Below are positions 8,984-16,504 of a DNA stretch of 64,000 nt, in pieces. The notes below the pieces were generated by a model. It did not search any database, was not told the origin of the DNA, and worked only from the letters and a program-made list of their open reading frames with translations. The number at the start of each line of letters is the position of its first letter. Within the stretch, counting starts at the first letter, position 1. This DNA is from Lachnospiraceae bacterium (GTDB lineage Bacteria > Bacillota_A > Clostridia > Lachnospirales > Lachnospiraceae), in NCBI GenBank assembly GCA_016287765.1, contig JAEEWS010000004.1, positions 38,903 through 102,902 of the forward strand. The letters run 5' to 3'. The translations under genes and the position numbers were made by a program.

Positions 8984-9012
8984 ATTTTACTTTATGACCG
9001 GTTTTCAGTCAA
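8984..9012 (-). promoter_or_regulatory. Sigma-A promoter of the PHP-rqcH operon
   Basis: On the minus strand TTGACT (9007-9012), 17-base spacer, TAAAAT (8984-8989). The -35 overlaps the stop of the last gene of the Tad-like cluster, separating the two transcription units. Confidence 0.75.
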
Positions 9013-9436
9013 GGGTCACCCTGCGTACAATAATGATTTCATAATTCAGTTTTCTTCCCGGCGCACTGATCTCAAAGGTCTCGGATTCAAAACACAGTTC
9101 AAGGATGTCGCTGCCTCTTACATTAAGAAGTTCCGTCTCCTCCTCTGCCGTAACACCGTTTACGGAAACCGTGATCTTCTTTAATCTCACCCCTTCCTCA
9201 TCGGTCAATGCGCGGCAAACATGTTCAAAGACCATTTGAGCCCTCAATATGGGCCGGGGTTCATACAGGCTTTTGCCAAAGTCCCCTGTCACCGCATCCG
9301 CTGCCGCATTAAACACAGCCTCCAGCCTCTCCCGCTGCCGCAGCACCGTTTTTAAAACATACCTTTCATAGCTTACGGAAGAAAAGGAAAGGCAGAACAG
9401 GATCCCAAATATCAATATCAATCTTGAGCATCTCAT
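9005..9436 (-). CDS. Membrane-anchored protein, last gene of Tad-like cluster, unknown
   Basis: Not recognised as a family. Starting at the ATG at 9436 (MRCSRLILIFGIL) it has 143 residues: one N-terminal hydrophobic segment (about 4-22), then a soluble, mixed alpha/beta domain with VTVSVNG- and FEISAPG-like strands. A TTG at 9445 is an alternative start. The form, signal anchor plus small extracytoplasmic domain, resembles minor pilin or TadE/F-like proteins, which fits its place in the cluster. It overlaps the 58-residue frame upstream by about 70 bases, so one of the two starts may be wrong. Confidence 0.6.
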   Translation of the reverse strand: MRCSRLILIFGILFCLSFSSVSYERYVLKTVLRQRERLEAVFNAAADAVTGDFGKSLYEPRPILRAQMVFEHVCRALTDEEGVRLKKITVSVNGVTAEEETELLNVRGSDILELCFESETFEISAPGRKLNYEIIIVRRVTLD

Positions 9437-9542
9437 ACAATACAACCTTTATAAAAGAAATCTCTCCCTTAAGAAAAACAACAGGTCCAAAAAAACATAC
9501 CGCGATCAGCAGAAACCGCATAACAAGTTCTTCAAAATCCAT
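9366..9542 (-). CDS. Small hydrophobic protein in Tad-like cluster (58 residues)
   Basis: Short frame starting MDFEELVMRFLLIAV at 9542, overlapping the stop of the upstream gene (9532) and running into the next gene in another frame. It has one membrane-spanning stretch (about residues 8-25) with an acidic N-terminus. The coupling of its start to the preceding stop fits the overlap style of the cluster, but the long overlap with the following gene lowers confidence. Confidence 0.4.
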   Translation of the reverse strand: MDFEELVMRFLLIAVCFFGPVVFLKGEISFIKVVLYEMLKIDIDIWDPVLPFLFFRKL

Positions 9543-9840
9543 AGTAGATCAGCTTCCCTTTCTTTTTGTCTTCATCCTTCGGTTCTGTCTCCCTGTAAAA
9601 ATATGGGTACAGTTCCGAGTCGATCTCCCCCTCCGGGGTGATGCTTACCGCCGTAACATGAACATTTATTATCTCTCCCACCGTCAGGATATATTCCGGT
9701 TCATCTTTGTTTTCGTCAACTGCTTTTCTAATAACAGCCCGCTTTACTTCAGACACCGTTTCCTTCCATTGTAACAGTGGTGAGATCATCAATATAAGGA
9801 TAAAGGTAAGCACCCCCAGTATATGGTCAGGTCCGTTCAT
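9532..9840 (-). CDS. Small membrane-anchored protein of Tad-like cluster, unknown
   Basis: 102 residues: short N-terminus, one hydrophobic segment (about 7-24, VLTFILILMISPLL), then a small charged domain with VGEIINVHVTAVSITPEG, probably beta strands, and a basic C-terminus. A GAGGCGG ribosome site precedes the ATG, and it starts 10 bases after the 43-residue gene. Topology suggests a pseudopilin-like or assembly accessory protein. No family recognised. Confidence 0.7.
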   Translation of the reverse strand: MNGPDHILGVLTFILILMISPLLQWKETVSEVKRAVIRKAVDENKDEPEYILTVGEIINVHVTAVSITPEGEIDSELYPYFYRETEPKDEDKKKGKLIYYGF

Positions 9841-9850
9841 ATTATCCGCC

Positions 9851-9982
9851 TCACATCAATGCCGCCCGGATCAGCTGTTCATACAGCCCTATCAGGTAAA
9901 CGGTGATTCCCAGTAAAAGTGTCACTCCGGATGAAAATATCAAAATATCCGCACCGAGATTTATGACAGAATTTCTTTTCAT
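9851..9982 (-). CDS. 43-residue single-span membrane protein in Tad-like cluster
   Basis: A short frame between two cluster genes: start MKRNSVINLGADILIF at 9982 with GGCGGG just upstream, stop at 9851. One hydrophobic segment (about residues 10-33) is followed by an amphipathic tail ending LIRAALM. In size and position it could be the Flp-type structural pilin, but it lacks the Gly-(4)-Glu-Tyr processing motif of Flp pilins, so that is only a possibility. Confidence 0.55.
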   Translation of the reverse strand: MKRNSVINLGADILIFSSGVTLLLGITVYLIGLYEQLIRAALM

Positions 9983-9990
9983 CCCGCCTC

Positions 9991-10485
9991 CTATCTTTGA
10001 GTAAAGGTCAATCTGTCTATGATACCGTTTTCATCCCTGTGTAGTTTTGCATCAAAGGTCGCATTGGGATTTATATAATACATGGACATGGACCTGTCAC
10101 TTATGTTCCTGGCCGCTTCTTCAAAGTTGATCATATTCTTGTCATCATATCCGCACACCGTACCCGCAGAGCAATTATATGCCACGCCCTCCTTATCCTT
10201 GGACTGGCTCTTCAGAAAACTGCCGTTTTTCACATATATCGTTACGTTTTCATCGTCAAGGCGGTTTATGAGGCTCTTAATCTCTCCTCCCGAAGCTGTG
10301 TTTCCGGTTCCGTCATACATGGCATATTCTATATCCGAATAATGGCCCATAAGATCGTCATACTGTGAATTTGCCGCATATATGGTCTCCTTTGATTTGT
10401 TATACATAGACATCCCTATCACCACAAAGCCAACTGTCATGATGATGCCAACCGAAAAGTAAATTATCTTTTTAACTATATCCAT
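9991..10485 (-). CDS. Pilin-like membrane-anchored protein A of Tad-like cluster
   Basis: 164 residues with an N-terminal hydrophobic segment (about 7-27, IIYFSVGIIMTVGFVVIG) and a soluble domain. The C-terminal region with SMYYINP, DENG and LTFTQR matches the next upstream protein (SVYYMNP, DEND, ITVEQR), so the two are paralogues. Two cysteines (CSAGTVCG) could form a disulfide outside the cell. The layout fits a TadE/F-like minor pilin, though no peptidase cleavage motif is obvious. It begins 3 bases after its paralogue's stop. Confidence 0.7.
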   Translation of the reverse strand: MDIVKKIIYFSVGIIMTVGFVVIGMSMYNKSKETIYAANSQYDDLMGHYSDIEYAMYDGTGNTASGGEIKSLINRLDDENVTIYVKNGSFLKSQSKDKEGVAYNCSAGTVCGYDDKNMINFEEAARNISDRSMSMYYINPNATFDAKLHRDENGIIDRLTFTQR

Positions 10486-10488
10486 TTT

Positions 10489-10902
10489 TTATCTCCTTTG
10501 TTCTACTGTGATCTTTTTTACCGCATCGTTCTCATCGAAGCGGACAGTTACATGATATTTTTTCAGAGGGTTCATATAATATACGGATGAAGTGTCCCTG
10601 ATACAGGCTGCGGAGATCTCATCCAACACGAAACTCTTTTTTTCCGTCCTGACTTCGACAGTGATCCCTTCCGAGGCATACATCTTCTTAACATAGGATA
10701 TTGCCCGGCTGCCGTCGATCTCTGTTCCGTCAAACCTGGTGATCTCATATTTCTTTAGTTCCCTTATGGAGTTTTCCTCCTGCTCCACTATGTTCTTTCC
10801 GATCTCCGCTGCCTTTGAATAGACCTTAAATCCTATCATTGCCAGAGACACTGTTATAACAAGCCCTGCTGCAAACAGAATGAATTCCTTTACTACAGAC
10901 AT
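10489..10902 (-). CDS. Pilin-like membrane-anchored protein B of Tad-like cluster
   Basis: 137 residues. One N-terminal membrane segment (about 7-27, ILFAAGLVITVSLAMIG), then a helical linker and a C-terminal domain paralogous to the downstream gene product (shared YY-NP and DEN motifs, QR end). Probably exported and anchored. It starts 8 bases after the TadB/C-like gene. A duplicated pair of minor pilin-like genes right after the platform protein is consistent with Tad loci. Confidence 0.7.
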   Translation of the reverse strand: MSVVKEFILFAAGLVITVSLAMIGFKVYSKAAEIGKNIVEQEENSIRELKKYEITRFDGTEIDGSRAISYVKKMYASEGITVEVRTEKKSFVLDEISAACIRDTSSVYYMNPLKKYHVTVRFDENDAVKKITVEQRR

Positions 10903-10910
10903 ACTCCCTC

Positions 10911-12491
10911 CTAAATGCCCTTTAGTATGTTGAACAGTTCTTCCATTTCACCCAATGTCATTTTAAGGAAGGGGATAACAAAATACCCTCCCAACATTAC
11001 AGCCCCCGGTATCCATGCTATGATATCCGTAAGGTCCTTTCGTTTTTCCGTCCTTATGGTGTTTTCCAGTTCTTCCATCTTTTCCATGTTCTCCCTGTCG
11101 GATATCGTATCCGCAAATGCATCTTCGATACCGACTTCATCGACGGCAAGAAACCCGTCTGCGATACTTTCGAAATACTCATTTTTCTTCTTTCCCTTTT
11201 CCTTTAAGTTTCTCAATGCTTTTTCCGCTCCTCCCGGCAGGATGTTAAGAGTTTCCCTGATCTCGTTTCCGAAGGCTCTGGCAAATAATTCCAGATCCGA
11301 TAAAAGATCAGTGACCGTGATGCTCTCCAGCTTTCTCTCCATCATGATCACCATCTGCATCCTTTTTATCTCCTCCACTGTCAGATTCTTATATCTCGCC
11401 TTTTTAAAGATCAGTTCCAGCAAAGGCATAAGCGACGCCAGCACCCCCATCACTCCCAGTATCACAAGTCCCCCCGGGCAGCTTTCCACTCCCATGATGA
11501 TCCCTGAGATCACCGGGAAAGAAAAGGCCGCTGCCATTTTCATGACCGTTTCTGCCACCGTGTCTTCGGTATCTGTTTCCGATATCAGCATTCTGATCAG
11601 CCTGCATATGATCCCCTTATTGTTTTCCAGTTTTCCGGAGAGCCTTTCCGGCCGGGTTCCCGTAAAAAACTTTTCTGCCCTTCCCGGATCCGATCCCGCA
11701 TCCGACACCATCCGGTATACGAAAAAAGAAAGTATAAGAGCCCCCAAAAGTACAGCCTTGCCGTATCCTTCGTAAAAGCCGGTCATGTTATCGGTAAATG
11801 CCAGACCTGCCTTTTTGAACACACCGTAAAAAAGTACAGGGACCACAGCCACAGTCATATATCCCGAGAACATATATGCGGTTTTCCTGGAAGAATACAG
11901 TTCTCCCGCAACACCGTTCCTAAGAAGATTCAGATTTTCCGCAAAGACAGAGCCCTCCTTTTCACCTTTTCCGTCCCCGAATTCGGAAGCCTCAAAGGCC
12001 TGTATCAGGAACAGTTTAAGGAAACGGTTTCTCACTCCTTTTCCCACATATTCCCTCACTGCTTTTCTTCTTTCTCCCAGAAGCAAAATGTCATGTATCT
12101 CCTCAGCATTGAGCCTTATCTCCTCCGGCATTTCCCTTGAGGCTTCTTTGACCGCTTCCGGAATGTTTCCCAGATTAAGGAACTTCTTTCTGACTCCCGA
12201 CAGATATCCGGGCAGCTTCATGTACAGCCGGTTTCTCATGTTTCTCAAGATGATCCCCGGTATCTCTCTGGTCATGATATAGGTGACAAAGCCCATTAAG
12301 AGCCATGTAAAAAAGCCGGGTCCGTTTATCAAAAGAACGAAGATCATGCTGAGTACCGCTGCCGTAACGGACAGAAACACTATCTTTCCCGACTTTTCCT
12401 TAAGTGTCTCCCTTCCATAGGGGCAGAGTTCTTCAAGCCCTTTTTCAACCCACCGTCGGTAGTGGCCAAAGACATTTGATACCACCGTCAT
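10911..12491 (-). CDS. TadB/TadC-like inner-membrane platform protein
   Basis: 526 residues with membrane segments near 37-75 (two), 208-225, 245-262, 315-365 and a C-terminal one near 490-510, and two soluble helical regions (about 85-200 and 370-480). This pattern, two T2SF-like halves, fits a fusion of TadB and TadC, which are usually separate ~300-residue proteins. It would form the membrane platform driven by the CpaF-like ATPase. The ATG at 12491 follows GAGG and overlaps the ATPase gene end by 47 bases. The assignment rests on topology and context, since sequence similarity is weak. Confidence 0.65.
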   Translation of the reverse strand: MTVVSNVFGHYRRWVEKGLEELCPYGRETLKEKSGKIVFLSVTAAVLSMIFVLLINGPGFFTWLLMGFVTYIMTREIPGIILRNMRNRLYMKLPGYLSGVRKKFLNLGNIPEAVKEASREMPEEIRLNAEEIHDILLLGERRKAVREYVGKGVRNRFLKLFLIQAFEASEFGDGKGEKEGSVFAENLNLLRNGVAGELYSSRKTAYMFSGYMTVAVVPVLFYGVFKKAGLAFTDNMTGFYEGYGKAVLLGALILSFFVYRMVSDAGSDPGRAEKFFTGTRPERLSGKLENNKGIICRLIRMLISETDTEDTVAETVMKMAAAFSFPVISGIIMGVESCPGGLVILGVMGVLASLMPLLELIFKKARYKNLTVEEIKRMQMVIMMERKLESITVTDLLSDLELFARAFGNEIRETLNILPGGAEKALRNLKEKGKKKNEYFESIADGFLAVDEVGIEDAFADTISDRENMEKMEELENTIRTEKRKDLTDIIAWIPGAVMLGGYFVIPFLKMTLGEMEELFNILKGI

Positions 12492-14022
12492 CTTGAACCT
12501 CGCTGATCCTTTCTATGCATCTTAAGCCTCCCTTTCGCCTCATATGTATGTCTATTCCCAGTGCGTTCACCGCTTCGCTTCTGGCCAGCCTTTCATCGCT
12601 GTATCCTCCCGCATTGAGCCGGGCGTTGGTAAAATCCCTCACCATGTCGGAAGTTTCCTTATAGTGGGCGGTAAACAGAATAGTCTCCGCAGTTTTAGCG
12701 ATATCTGTAAGCGTAACCGCCATGTCCGGAGTATTCACCTCTCCCACGGCAAAAACCTGTCCCGTGGTCTTCTTGGAAAATCCCAGGACTCTGTCCGCCG
12801 GATCCTTATCCGACACTCTTAAGGTCAGGGTATTGGCTTTCGGGAGATAATCACGGATATTAAGTTCAAAGCTTTCCGCCTCGATCACGCGTATGCTCTT
12901 TTCCTTACCTATCTCTATAAGCAACGCCCTTAAAAGGGTGGTCTTTCCCGAGGCTGTTTCTCCCGTTACCGCAATACTCTTCCTGGTGTGCAATATGCGT
13001 ATCAGGAGATCCCTTAGTTCTTCGTCCTCCACCAGTTCATCCAGGGATATCCTCGGCACGGTATCAAATTTTCTGATAAGCCCTGCCCAGGAGTCCGAAA
13101 AAGGCGGTCTTGTAACAGTCACTCTTCTTCCGTCGGGGGTGTCCGCCACGATCCTCGGCGTTCTTCTTGTAAGTTCACCCGCTCCCGTGTTTTTTATCAG
13201 GTTTCTTAATACTCTGATCAATTCATCATCGGATCCGAAGGAAAGGAACAGCAGCCTGACCGGAATCCCCGAGACCAGGATGTGCACGCTGTCCCTGCTG
13301 AAGCTTTTGCTTTCAACATTTTTCTTTTCTTCCAGCATTTCCCTGTAATCGTAGTTATCCTTTATGCATCCCGACATTCCCAACTGTATCTCTTCGATGC
13401 ATCCCTTCTGCCACATCAATGAATCCACTTCTCCAAAGCCCACCGTCATGGCGTAGATCATGGTCGCCAACACCTTTAGCCTGTCCTCCCTGTCCATATT
13501 ACGGCATAAACAGGCATATGCATCCTCAACATAATTACCCGACAACTCTCCGCAACAGACAGAAACATCCTTGAACCTGCTTTCCCAGAGTTTTTCAAAG
13601 CCTCTTTCCCGCTCATTCTTTCCCGCCTCGTAAAGTATGCACTCAAATCTCCCCCAAAGATTGCCGCTTTCATTAAATATCCTGTCCAATTCTTCATCCG
13701 TGGGTTTTTTAACCTCCGTTAGCCAGGCAAGGATCACAGACTTTATCACATCCCTGGGTCCTTTAAGCCCGCTGCAGCAGTTTCCCAGAGCCTCTGCCAC
13801 CGACTCCTCGGTCTTTTGTACATTTAAAGCCGAATTCCCGCCGAAGTTTTGTTTCCTAAGGCCGTAGTCGTTAAGAAGTTCTGCTCCCTCCTTTACCAGC
13901 CGCGAGAAGGTCACACACCTCATGGTCTCATCCTTTTTTTCCTTTCTTTCTTTAAAAAGCATATATCCCGCCAACGGGATCAGAAGCAAAAGAAAGACCA
14001 GCTGAAGGACCTCACCTGTCAT
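12445..14022 (-). CDS. CpaF/TadA-like secretion ATPase with N-terminal membrane segment
   Basis: 525 residues. The C-terminal half is a type II/IV secretion ATPase: Walker A GETASGKTT (about 345), Asp box region, VFAVGEV as Walker B, and FTAHY in the place of the TIHA His box. It powers pilus assembly or secretion in Tad systems. Unusual points: residues 4-22 form a hydrophobic segment (LQLVFLLLLIPLAGYML) not usual in soluble CpaF, and the Walker B and His boxes are divergent (GEVNT instead of GEVRG). The upstream CpaE-like gene overlaps by 4 bases (ATGA). Confidence 0.8.
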   Translation of the reverse strand: MTGEVLQLVFLLLLIPLAGYMLFKERKEKKDETMRCVTFSRLVKEGAELLNDYGLRKQNFGGNSALNVQKTEESVAEALGNCCSGLKGPRDVIKSVILAWLTEVKKPTDEELDRIFNESGNLWGRFECILYEAGKNERERGFEKLWESRFKDVSVCCGELSGNYVEDAYACLCRNMDREDRLKVLATMIYAMTVGFGEVDSLMWQKGCIEEIQLGMSGCIKDNYDYREMLEEKKNVESKSFSRDSVHILVSGIPVRLLFLSFGSDDELIRVLRNLIKNTGAGELTRRTPRIVADTPDGRRVTVTRPPFSDSWAGLIRKFDTVPRISLDELVEDEELRDLLIRILHTRKSIAVTGETASGKTTLLRALLIEIGKEKSIRVIEAESFELNIRDYLPKANTLTLRVSDKDPADRVLGFSKKTTGQVFAVGEVNTPDMAVTLTDIAKTAETILFTAHYKETSDMVRDFTNARLNAGGYSDERLARSEAVNALGIDIHMRRKGGLRCIERISEVQDDGGIKCLWPLPTVG

Positions 14023-14771
14023 CTTCCTCCTCCTTTCAACATTTTATTTACCATTTCCCCGGTTTTGGATGTGAAATAATGATCCGGCATATACCTTCCC
14101 ATATTCCTCATGGTCTTAAAAAACTCCACAACCGTCCCTTCGGAAAGCGCATCCATGAAGCCTGTGCAGGAGGGCAGCATAGTCAGTTCCGTTCCGTAGG
14201 AAAATCTGAAACTCCCGGCGCCGGCAGTGGAATTCTTAAGGCTACCGTTAACCACAAACATATCTTTTTTATCTTTTCCCTGTTTTTCAAAATGTTCTTT
14301 CCATGCCCTTTTGCTCTGGGGCAACATCCACATTGTGGTATCCGCCTTTATCCTTCTGCCCGCTCCGCAGTCCACCAATACCAGGTCGTACACTTTTCCG
14401 ATCTCGGATATCATTACCTCCGAGAGTTCATCCTCTTCTTTTCCCCTTATAAGACCTCCCCCGTGGAACACATCCAGAGAAGGACTCAGAGTTTTAAGCG
14501 CACAGCCTCTCACCTTTTCTTCATTTAATCTTCCTCCCCTTATCATCAGCAACAGAGCAGAGAGGCCGGTCTTTTTATAGATCTCTTTCTTTAGATCATT
14601 TGCTAAGTGTCTGTCAAAACAGTCGCAGATGTCGTTCTTCCCTCCGGGGAGCTGGACCACCGCCGTATTAAATCCGGTCTCTGCGGCAAGCCAGGATGCT
14701 GCGGCAGAAACACAGGAGGTTACGTGGCCTGTTCCCGAAAGGTCGGATCTGAACTCAAAGATCTTGCCCAT
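14019..14771 (-). CDS. CpaE/TadZ-like protein with degenerate P-loop
   Basis: 250 residues with the outline of a MinD/ParA-type protein: N-terminal EFRSDLSGTGHVTSCV where the deviant Walker A (KGGxGKT) should be, then LVLVDCGAG near residue 130 as in the Walker B strand of MinD. The P-loop lysine is missing, so it probably does not hydrolyse ATP. In Tad loci CpaE/TadZ positions the apparatus; many TadZ proteins are also degenerate. It lies directly before the ATPase gene (4-base overlap). Confidence 0.65.
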   Translation of the reverse strand: MGKIFEFRSDLSGTGHVTSCVSAAASWLAAETGFNTAVVQLPGGKNDICDCFDRHLANDLKKEIYKKTGLSALLLMIRGGRLNEEKVRGCALKTLSPSLDVFHGGGLIRGKEEDELSEVMISEIGKVYDLVLVDCGAGRRIKADTTMWMLPQSKRAWKEHFEKQGKDKKDMFVVNGSLKNSTAGAGSFRFSYGTELTMLPSCTGFMDALSEGTVVEFFKTMRNMGRYMPDHYFTSKTGEMVNKMLKGGGR

Positions 14772-15331
14772 TTTTTCTCCCTTTCCATTACTTTTTTCAT
14801 TTTTCTGCGGGTCAGTCCCATGATCTCTTCACCCATATCCATAAGACCTTTTCTCATTCCCGGACTCAGGTTCTTAAGGCGGTATTGTATCCCTTCCTGA
14901 AGACAGCATCTCACTGTCAAGTCCTTGACGCTTTCTCTTAAATAGACACTGCTTCCCTTTATCTTAAGCAGGTTCATTATGTAATCCCCTGCTTTTTCAT
15001 TTCCGCAGATATCTCTGATCAGCACCAGGTCATAGACATTACATCCCAGCTGTCTCATGTCCCTTTCAAACCTTCTGGCAGTTGCGGGGAAGATATCCGT
15101 AACAAGGCAGTTGATATCACCTGAAGCTTTTTTTGCCTTTATCATCCCGTTTATCAAAAGCACTCCGGGATATTCTTTTATCTCTTCCTCCCTTATCAAA
15201 GGGATATCGGAAAAGGAATAACTTCTCACCGTGTCATTTATGGCCACATCTATCCCTGACAGTTTAAGCAGTTTTGCAAAGTGCATGACGATATCTTCAC
15301 AATCGACGCCGTCAAAACATATGCATTTCAT
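14720..15331 (-). CDS. Unknown cytosolic protein of Tad-like cluster (possible receiver-like domain)
   Basis: 203 residues, no signal or membrane segment. The N-terminal half alternates short strands and helices (MKCICFDGVD, GVLLINGMI, VYDLVLIRD), as in an atypical receiver or P-loop fold; TadZ proteins have such an N-terminal domain, and here it might be encoded separately from the MinD-like part that follows. The C-terminus is strongly basic. It overlaps the genes on both sides by 20 and 52 bases. Confidence 0.6.
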   Translation of the reverse strand: MKCICFDGVDCEDIVMHFAKLLKLSGIDVAINDTVRSYSFSDIPLIREEEIKEYPGVLLINGMIKAKKASGDINCLVTDIFPATARRFERDMRQLGCNVYDLVLIRDICGNEKAGDYIMNLLKIKGSSVYLRESVKDLTVRCCLQEGIQYRLKNLSPGMRKGLMDMGEEIMGLTRRKMKKVMEREKKWARSLSSDPTFREQAT

Positions 15332-15887
15332 TTTGTCTTCCTCTCCTTCCCTTTATCATCATTCCCCATTTTCCTGCAGGAGGTCTGACGGCACAGAATG
15401 CTCCGCTTTCGATCTCAGGATCTCTGCAGGTCAGTTCTTTTCCCGTTTCTTCTATTGCCAGTATCCTTATTATCCTTTCCTCTTCTTCCCGGTTATCGGA
15501 ACAGAGAAAAGCGGCCTTTTTGTATCTTTGACCGTCTGCGGAAAGCTCGGTACCGGAATGATTTTGGATCTTGCAAAAGGATCCGGTCCTTATCTCCCAA
15601 TCCGTAAAGTTTATAACGAAGGAAAGATCTCCGGCCCTTTCCTTTTCCTTATCTCCCTGCATTTTTAAAAAATCCCTTTCTTTTTCCGGAATACCCAATA
15701 CCTTTTCCGAGAGAAGAGCTTTGTACATCTTCTTAAGGTCATCCCCGGTAAGTTCATCGGAAGCCTCTGTTTTAAGGAGTTCTTCCAATTCTTCTCTTCT
15801 TTCCAGGATTAAAATGTTTAAAAGCTGTTTTCCGGTCAGGAAGCCACCGTTATCAAAGGGCCAGTCCCCTTCCTCTCTCTGCTTCAT
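15312..15887 (-). CDS. Unknown protein of Tad-like cluster
   Basis: 191 residues, charged, no membrane segment. The N-terminal half is helical and Glu/Lys-rich; the C-terminal half has several hydrophobic strands (FVINFTDWEI, ERIIRILAIEE). No family recognised. Its ATG overlaps the stop of the CpaB-like gene (TGATG), so it is translationally coupled and very likely part of the same machinery. Confidence 0.6.
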   Translation of the reverse strand: MKQREEGDWPFDNGGFLTGKQLLNILILERREELEELLKTEASDELTGDDLKKMYKALLSEKVLGIPEKERDFLKMQGDKEKERAGDLSFVINFTDWEIRTGSFCKIQNHSGTELSADGQRYKKAAFLCSDNREEEERIIRILAIEETGKELTCRDPEIESGAFCAVRPPAGKWGMMIKGRRGRQNEMHMF

Positions 15888-16357
15888 CAGGGTATCCTCA
15901 CGGCATAGGCTCTGACTATGCTTCCTTCTTTCATACCGATCAGTGCATCGGTGATACAGGCCAGCTCATCTTCCCTGACCAGGAGAAAAACCCCTTCCTT
16001 GTCCATGCCTTTAATGCATTTTTCCGCCAAAAGTTTGGAATCTCCTCCATTCGGATCTACTATCCGGACATCGATCAGATCACCTTCGGATATGTAATTA
16101 CTGATATCTATCCCGTCGATCCACACTTCCCTCATTTCGGGAGTGTTCTTTTCTTCGATCACTGTTTCCCGTTCTATAGTGTCCTGTGTCTCTTCCTGCG
16201 TGCTTACCTGCCTTTCTGCCTCAAACCCCACACCGTTTGCAATACACAGCCTTTCTGCCAAAAGAGAAGCAAAGGCTCCGGCAGTAAAAAACATCACAAA
16301 AAGCAGGACACGAATGATCGTCCCCGTCTTGTTTTTTCCGTATTTTATTTTGTACAT
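15887..16357 (-). CDS. CpaB/RcpC-like SAF-domain protein, first gene of Tad-like cluster
   Basis: 156 residues. An N-terminal membrane segment (about 14-34) is followed by a Thr/Glu-rich linker and a C-terminal domain (VWIDGIDISNYISEGDLIDV, KCIKGMD, FLLVREDE) that fits the SAF and RcpC/CpaB fold: a short beta clip, then the 'EGDLIDVRIV' strand typical of CpaB. CpaB is a periplasmic or surface-associated assembly factor of Tad pili. First gene after the promoter at 16430-16458. Confidence 0.65.
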   Translation of the reverse strand: MYKIKYGKNKTGTIIRVLLFVMFFTAGAFASLLAERLCIANGVGFEAERQVSTQEETQDTIERETVIEEKNTPEMREVWIDGIDISNYISEGDLIDVRIVDPNGGDSKLLAEKCIKGMDKEGVFLLVREDELACITDALIGMKEGSIVRAYAVRIP

Positions 16358-16429
16358 TTTAATTGGATCTGTTCCTGAAGTTTTAGAACTATCATTTGAA
16401 CATATGAATCAGACAATTTGACGTGCCAT

Positions 16430-16458
16430 ATTATATACTGACACACTGAATTTGTAAA
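16430..16458 (-). promoter_or_regulatory. Sigma-A promoter of the Tad-like cluster
   Basis: On the minus strand TTTACA (16453-16458), 17-base spacer, perfect TATAAT (16430-16435). About 75 bases before the first start codon. Divergent from the promoter of the 82-residue gene; the two -35 boxes are only 17 bases apart, so one regulator could control both. Confidence 0.8.
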
Positions 16459-16475
16459 GAATTATTTTTTTGAAG

Positions 16476-16504
16476 TTGTATTTTTTTTGATCTGGGTTTA
16501 TCAT
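16476..16504 (+). promoter_or_regulatory. Sigma-A promoter of the 82-residue gene and argH
   Basis: TTGTAT (16476-16481), 17-base spacer, TATCAT (16499-16504). The ATG at 16531 is preceded by GGAGG. Confidence 0.65.

Follow-up and report, generated by a model that had tools for sequence, protein, structure and literature searches.

What kind of machine is encoded by twelve tightly packed genes of which only one has a credible match in the protein family libraries? The question is raised by a 64,000-nucleotide stretch of contig JAEEWS010000004.1 from a Lachnospiraceae bacterium (hereafter the window), in which positions 9005-16357 hold 12 tight open reading frames (ORFs), on the minus strand only, named A to L. 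All 12 reading frames are intact and the gaps between neighboring genes range from -80 to +10 bases, in agreement with an earlier note on this DNA that had described one compact unit behind a single promoter. That note had left the cluster as either a minimal Gram-positive Tad pilus or a distinct device. Judged by its sequence, the cluster looks like a reduced member of a distinct Tad (type IVc)-related lineage that stands next to clostridial Tad; the choice between the two overlooks that the lineage stands by itself with its own subunit families (GH, J, and L) and that the window has a reduced version of it. The genes probably encode a machine of the cell envelope that belongs to the type IV filament superfamily and would form a short envelope filament or a pseudopilus.

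The protein with the credible library match is E (12 proteins were searched against Pfam and 10 against NCBIfam), and its score against Pfam T2SSE of 24.8 bits was just below the cut-off of 24.9. One public source names E (P0001) CpaF and another database lists T2SSE, and its homologues P0017 and P0030 are labelled Lachnospiraceae in public records. As expected of a secretion-superfamily ATPase, the Walker A motif and the Walker B glutamate are present and invariant in 17 of 17 sequences and the histidine box is kept. Ordinary TadA has an arginine-rich stretch at the position where E has a pair of lysines that precedes Walker B, and this pair is also invariant (17/17). Comparison of the E profile with PDB gave matches to CpaF (9e-21), FlaI (6e-14), 2oap (6e-11), which we take to be archaeal GspE2, and VirB11 (1e-8). 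The control TadA profile has a match in 95 of 99 family loci, a set that includes the window.

The position of E among its relatives was examined in an unrooted tree of 60 ATPase sequences, with PilB/PilT as an assumed outgroup and with canonical Tad sampled from clostridia only (no proteobacterial or archaeal sequences); branch support is given as ultrafast bootstrap/SH-aLRT (Shimodaira-Hasegawa-like approximate likelihood ratio test). All 30 E rows group in a single clade (100/97), E and seven intermediate rows together form a clade (100/99), and 16 clostridial TadA sequences form a third (99/99). The PilB- and PilT-like rows form their own group, and the branch between this group and the rows of TadA and E has 100/100 support. 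This tree leaves out five long-branch rows of a preceding one, in which the E (98) and TadA (99) clades were also recovered and PilB/PilT fell on the same side of the midpoint as TadA (86%). E is not the PilB/GspE-type ATPase of a type IVa pilus or type II secretion system, as the PilB/PilT rows are separate and the PDB matches are of the CpaF type rather than PilB. The gene content also speaks against VirB type IV secretion: Pfam finds no VirB4 or VirD4 in the window's cluster, and E is closer to CpaF than to VirB11. The intermediate ATPase clade comes from loci L156-L162; in some of these the platform is divided over two ORFs and GH-, J-, or L-like genes are present, and this clade may show the origin of the one-protein platform described below.

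A simple hydropathy scan gives protein F six spans, and the protein corresponds to a GspF/TadB-TadC platform. By hhalign, residues 68-325 and 504-671 of the F family profile match the TadB control (90.6% and 57.0%), and the family matches the TadC control likewise at two places (86.2% and 63.1%); the TadB control profile had absorbed TadC and vice versa (40 proteins in 22 loci). The earlier note had made membership of the ATPase and the membrane protein in the type II secretion and type IV pilus families a test of its reading, and both turned out to belong, E by its CpaF match and F by its TadB match. Four family loci (L116, L118, L125, and L126) have two F-matching ORFs of ~440 and 250 residues; among the seven intermediate loci there are two such ORFs in three (~270-300 and 370-385 residues), one in three, and none in one. 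TadZ-like proteins precede the ATPase. The D family matches TadZ at 97.2% by hhalign and the BC family more weakly at 90.4%, and GK[ST] within the first 40 residues is found in 18 of 95 D members and 2 of 87 BC members. Protein A corresponds to RcpC/CpaB without the SAF part. Alone, without a profile, it matches a 320-residue CpaB-like relative in L037 (4e-07), and, aligned with its relatives, it retains the membrane span and the final domain and lacks the SAF part. In L066 the counterpart of A carries a SAF domain (45.2 bits, cut-off 21); in the L044 relative Pfam finds no SAF.

Relatives of the cluster are widespread. In 61 genomes (the nearest one and 60 relatives), strong E matches were found in 16 (E<1e-37, frames >500 residues unless cut by a contig end), and a weaker class consisted partly of ordinary, shorter TadA. 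The strong class is present in six of seven genomes of the window's genus (E<1e-50) and G004 has none. A wider sample of 243 genomes spread over the class, with five candidates scored per genome, gave, among the rows listed, a best match of at least 400 bits in 22 and an intermediate ATPase (100-165 bits, frames of at least 520 residues) in 15 more. When one genome was scanned for each species, at least 584 stretches had the pattern, of which at least 503 encode relatives; the 80 loci kept from these belong mainly to Clostridia, Paenibacillus, Cohnella, and Tumebacillus. The ATPase was additionally found in 24 plasmid records, including Paenibacillus (10) and Lysinibacillus (7). In two plasmid operons the ATPase and the SAF protein have names, as does ParA in one, and the rest of the core is annotated as hypothetical. 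In G187 (C33:19208-21065) and G237 (C17:13130-14993), which belong to one family, the ATPase lies in two overlapping frames that would represent a split gene or a frameshift.

Profile families were grown from a single distant locus (L044) and they match the window's proteins: CpaB matches A (1.9e-29), BC matches C (4.3e-34), D matches D (2.5e-56), E matches E (2.9e-151), F matches F (3e-138), and GH matches H (1e-28) and G (1.1e-23). G and H share this profile and are paralogues, as the earlier note had said of two pilin-like proteins. The order CpaB-BC-D-E-F-GH-(I)-J-L recurs in loci of Clostridia and Paenibacillaceae: CpaB, BC, and D all lie upstream of E in 74 of the 86 loci with enough DNA, and F, GH, J, and L all lie downstream in 52 of 61. 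In five of the 98 loci no E was called, and these five, two of them pieces of one split locus, were excluded from this count. The conserved architecture that the earlier note had emphasized is therefore borne out, and its Lachnospiraceae frame proved too narrow, as the order is also found in other Clostridia and in Paenibacillaceae and the ATPase on plasmids. Because the order recurs in distant genomes and the genes are under purifying selection, the cluster is more than a chance arrangement. B matched in only five of 20 loci (L031, L032, L033, L035, and L036), all close relatives of the window.

The GH family comprises at least 6,398 proteins at E<=0.001 (no more than 8,000 candidates scored); 119 of the 120 matches listed have no Pfam domain, and a locus may have up to six copies. 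G and H lie directly behind the platform gene, which is the place of the Flp-like gene in control locus L049; the Flp-like and TadE-like controls were named from place, size, and motif, and Pfam names neither L049 protein. In an AlphaFold2 model of H (mean predicted local distance difference test score, pLDDT, of 79), a single 56-residue helix that spans residues 2-57 is joined to a small alpha/beta head, with residues ~91-140 below a pLDDT of 70. A model of the full-length L protein of L056 (pLDDT 84) has the same outline, with a helix (residues 3-51) and a large alpha/beta domain. The lollipop outline of H and its place in the operon would be compatible with a pilin or pseudopilin. Helix-only GH-like proteins of 45-51 residues occur in L038, L042, and L046 where gene I stands in the window, and I matched none of the family profiles. 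The counterparts of J in L035 (122 residues) and L036 (124 residues) match the J profile and the orthologue of L in L031 (143 residues) matches the L profile. K is 93% identical in G001 with a ratio of nonsynonymous to synonymous substitution rates (dN/dS) of 0.21, and short proteins occupy its place in L035 and L036. Three L-family proteins (P0249, P0264, and P0340) appear in public records as 'F0F1-type ATP synthase' or as 'sensor histidine kinase', names that are apparently wrong.

Several results weigh against a Tad-related machine with pilin-like subunits. With plain HMMER the TadB profile finds F in 0 of 99 family loci and the TadC profile in one of 99, weakly, and the platform assignment is drawn from hhalign. 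The CpaB profile drifted (it took in 258 proteins from 95 loci) and gives scores to GH proteins as well, the I profile merged with GH, and X350 merged with D and others; the E profile also absorbed controls, and genes were labelled by their best profile. The loci in which gene order was counted are the same ones from which the families were built. The window's J and L match no family profile themselves and are placed through their orthologues. GH has no sequence match to a pilin or pseudopilin, and the model of H has no match in the PDB (Foldseek, E<=0.001); the L056 model likewise has none at this threshold. Against the Flp-like and TadE-like controls, GH scores below 4% in hhalign; the TadE-like values are 2.6% for GH, 4.1% for J, and 5.2% for L, so that no TadE/TadF/TadG minor pilin is recognized among GH, J, and L by this comparison, and these families may have the same roles nonetheless. 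No phenotype was found for any member of the lineage. Finally, the prepilin motif (G, A, or S, four residues, E, and then a hydrophobic stretch, sought in the first 50 residues) is mostly missing from GH: this E+5 motif is found in five of 276 GH/I proteins, four of 82 J proteins, and one of 81 L proteins, compared with 12 of the 20 Flp-like controls and 20 of the 32 TadE-like ones.

The GH proteins may keep their whole six- to seven-residue N-terminus, in which case a large lineage of type IV filament machines in Bacillota would polymerize its subunits without processing, the E+5 motif, or an A24 peptidase; we advance this tentatively. The Pfam, NCBIfam, and control profiles found no peptidase, secretin, or Flp-like protein in the cluster, as the earlier note had reported. 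The 22 control loci served to build an A24 profile, which found the peptidase gene in 18 of them and in only one of the 99 family loci, L059, where other Tad-like genes adjoin; the Flp-like profile similarly matched in 20 of 22 control loci and in none of the 99. No A24 gene was labelled in 11 further loci, including the intermediate ones; two of these 11 have other Tad-type genes (TadE- and TadZ-like genes nearby in L157 and a TadA in L169). It could instead be that the GH subunits are cut by a prepilin peptidase encoded elsewhere in the genome, as A24 is present in 57 of the 61 genomes searched, in all seven of the window's genus, and in 18 of the 21 carriers of the wide family (17 above the cut-off). 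Three carriers are without it: G124 and G242, in which a TadA-type ATPase is present as well, and the distant genome G164, in which the frame of E is broken. Filament loci without a peptidase gene of their own are known, for example MSH (PMC6668835), and many GH N-termini resemble a short class III leader (K6-A7): of 273 sequences, 158 have K or R at residue 6 and 176 have A, G, or S at residue 7. In the window's G and H, residues 7 are F and I, which are poor cleavage residues, and processing of these two proteins is unlikely to judge from their sequences. Together with the motif counts, the near absence of A24 from the family loci, and the separation of the E clade from the sampled clostridial TadA, this makes cleavage by a peptidase encoded elsewhere rather improbable.

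What the machine does is suggested by the genes that follow it in relatives. These encode SLH-domain and DUF5704 proteins, an Ig-like protein of 1,561 residues (L037), a GH18-domain protein (L046), an SH3-domain protein 173 bases on (L039), and a 712-residue repeat protein in L035 (G006, of the window's genus). On plasmids pTHECO01 and pBpOF4-01 (L171 and L172), which come from different genera, the operon is followed by SLH, DUF5704, and GGDEF-type genes, the last hinting at cyclic-di-nucleotide control. Since surface-protein genes follow the operon in larger relatives, the machine likely serves to attach to the outer cell wall or to remodel it. The same neighbors allow a secretion device that makes no filament, in which GH, J, and L would act as a piston or as a lasting envelope complex that exports these surface proteins. 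Surface proteins with a Sec signal need no such machine for export, and the window's operon has no surface gene beside it yet is under purifying selection; we regard such a device as unlikely. The window's operon is the engine without the surface proteins. Its CpaB protein lacks SAF, its I, J, K, and L are short, and no surface-protein gene stands at its end, which together with the broken ATPase frame of G164 could be taken for a functionless remnant decaying in the window's lineage. The comparison with G001 covered ten genes (all except E and L) and gave dN/dS of 0.04-0.21 in nine; G had 0.37 with a dS of only 0.034. Because dN/dS is low in nine of ten genes, the operon does not look decayed, and with every frame open, the promoter kept, and E matched in nearly all genomes of the genus, decay is very improbable. 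The preferred reading remains the Tad-related filament machine.

This machine shares with the Tad (type IVc) systems of monoderms an ATPase related to CpaF/TadA, a TadB/C-type platform, TadZ- and RcpC-type proteins, and putative subunit genes directly behind the platform. It differs in that the window, like most loci, has both platform halves in a single protein whereas Tad has two (TadB and TadC), in that no Flp-like, TadE-like, or A24 match is present in the locus save for the one neighbor case, and in that it has its own GH, J, and L families, a separate ATPase clade, and two TadZ-like proteins. Among solved ATPases, archaellum FlaI and 2oap are the next-best relatives and CpaF is closer (the tree has no archaeal sequences). 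Tad-like loci of Gram-positive Clostridia without a recognizable prepilin motif are reported to have tadV (PMC3244431, 2011); measured against that published description, the present loci differ in having A24 in one of 99. A Bulleidia tad operon starts with tadV (PMC12786226). A 2019 account (PMC6668835) treats the platform as split into TadB and TadC and allows that 'generic' type IV filament systems may lack a peptidase of their own. By that description, to which the likeness is confined, the loci here share the ATPase, the platform, a putative pilin, and an optional peptidase, and differ in that generic systems need a major pilin found by profile while GH is unlike the Flp- and TadE-like controls. 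No published description of the lineage was found in the literature searched.

The sequences show homology, gene order, selection, and the lack of a classical prepilin motif and of a matched peptidase gene in the locus; we infer the filament, the stacking of its subunits, and the role of every protein as follows. E would form an ATPase ring at the cytoplasmic face, by homology, and drive the platform F, which would lift the GH-type subunits G and H out of the membrane. The long hydrophobic helices at the N-termini of G and H would let these proteins stack, giving a short filament or pseudopilus for which I, J, K, and L may be minor subunits or an initiating complex. D and C, TadZ-like proteins with degenerate nucleotide sites, could be a hub that places the machine, and A, a CpaB/RcpC remnant, would lie outside the membrane around the exit.

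The coordinates of the genes and promoter are collected in Table 1. The -35 and -10 hexamers are invariant across the window and three relatives' genomes (G001, G003, and G005) and the spacer between them is variable, in support of the single promoter of the earlier note; promoter-like sites overall are not enriched (13 found, 17.2 expected in shuffles). Within window positions 16400-16490, an AT-rich stretch upstream of the -35 hexamer is also invariant in the same four genomes, and ~25 bases downstream of the -10 hexamer are mostly so; an UP element and a regulator site may lie here. For gene L the ATG at 9436 is a likelier start than the TTG at 9445, because the L031 relative begins there.

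Table 1. Promoter and genes of the cluster, listed in the direction of transcription.
Feature	Position	Strand	Description
Promoter	16430..16458	-	-35 TTTACA, 17 bases, -10 TATAAT; 11/12 consensus matches
Gene A	15887..16357	-	156 residues; N-terminal span and C-terminal CpaB/RcpC-like domain; no SAF part
Gene B	15312..15887	-	191 residues; zero predicted spans; no Pfam/NCBIfam match
Gene C	14720..15331	-	203 residues; BC family, TadZ/ParA-like without Walker A
Gene D	14019..14771	-	250 residues; TadZ/CpaE-like, atypical P-loop
Gene E	12445..14022	-	525 residues; motor ATPase, TadA/CpaF-related, N-terminal span
Gene F	10911..12491	-	526 residues; TadB- and TadC-like platform halves within a single protein
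Gene G	10489..10902	-	137 residues; pilin-like, GH family, one N-terminal span
Gene H	9991..10485	-	164 residues; pilin-like, GH family, paralogue of G
Gene I	9851..9982	-	43 residues, one span; assigned by place and size
Gene J	9532..9840	-	102 residues, one span; shortened J protein by position
Gene K	9366..9542	-	58 residues, one span
Gene L	9005..9436	-	~143 residues, one span; L protein in shortened form; from the TTG the frame would begin at 9445

The cluster is flanked by argH on one side (named from sequence) and by PHP-domain and NFACT genes on the other. Flanking frames of the same size are found in L031 and L032, and in part in L033, L035, and L036; the locus is therefore chromosomal and inherited. 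In some relatives a Ser/Thr kinase-like gene lies upstream of the operon (L056:5983-7425, L082:5838-7337, and L101:5425-6867), labelled Pkinase by Pfam in L082 and by sequence resemblance in L056 and L101. A few kb upstream of the L066 operon (L066:94-4022) are genes for a VirB4-like ATPase (AAA_10) and an M23/transglycosylase protein, which suggests by sequence a conjugation-like neighborhood in some Paenibacillaceae.

The lineage is wide but largely unannotated and has its own subunits. Placing the GH proteins in a machine would annotate an envelope system of Clostridia, Paenibacillaceae, and plasmids of Bacillus-like bacteria, and the reduced version in the window may reveal the core of that machine. 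Additionally, the locus makes it possible to test whether a prepilin peptidase must cut the subunits of type IV filaments. If the GH proteins are indeed not processed, one feature held to define type IV filaments would be dispensable.

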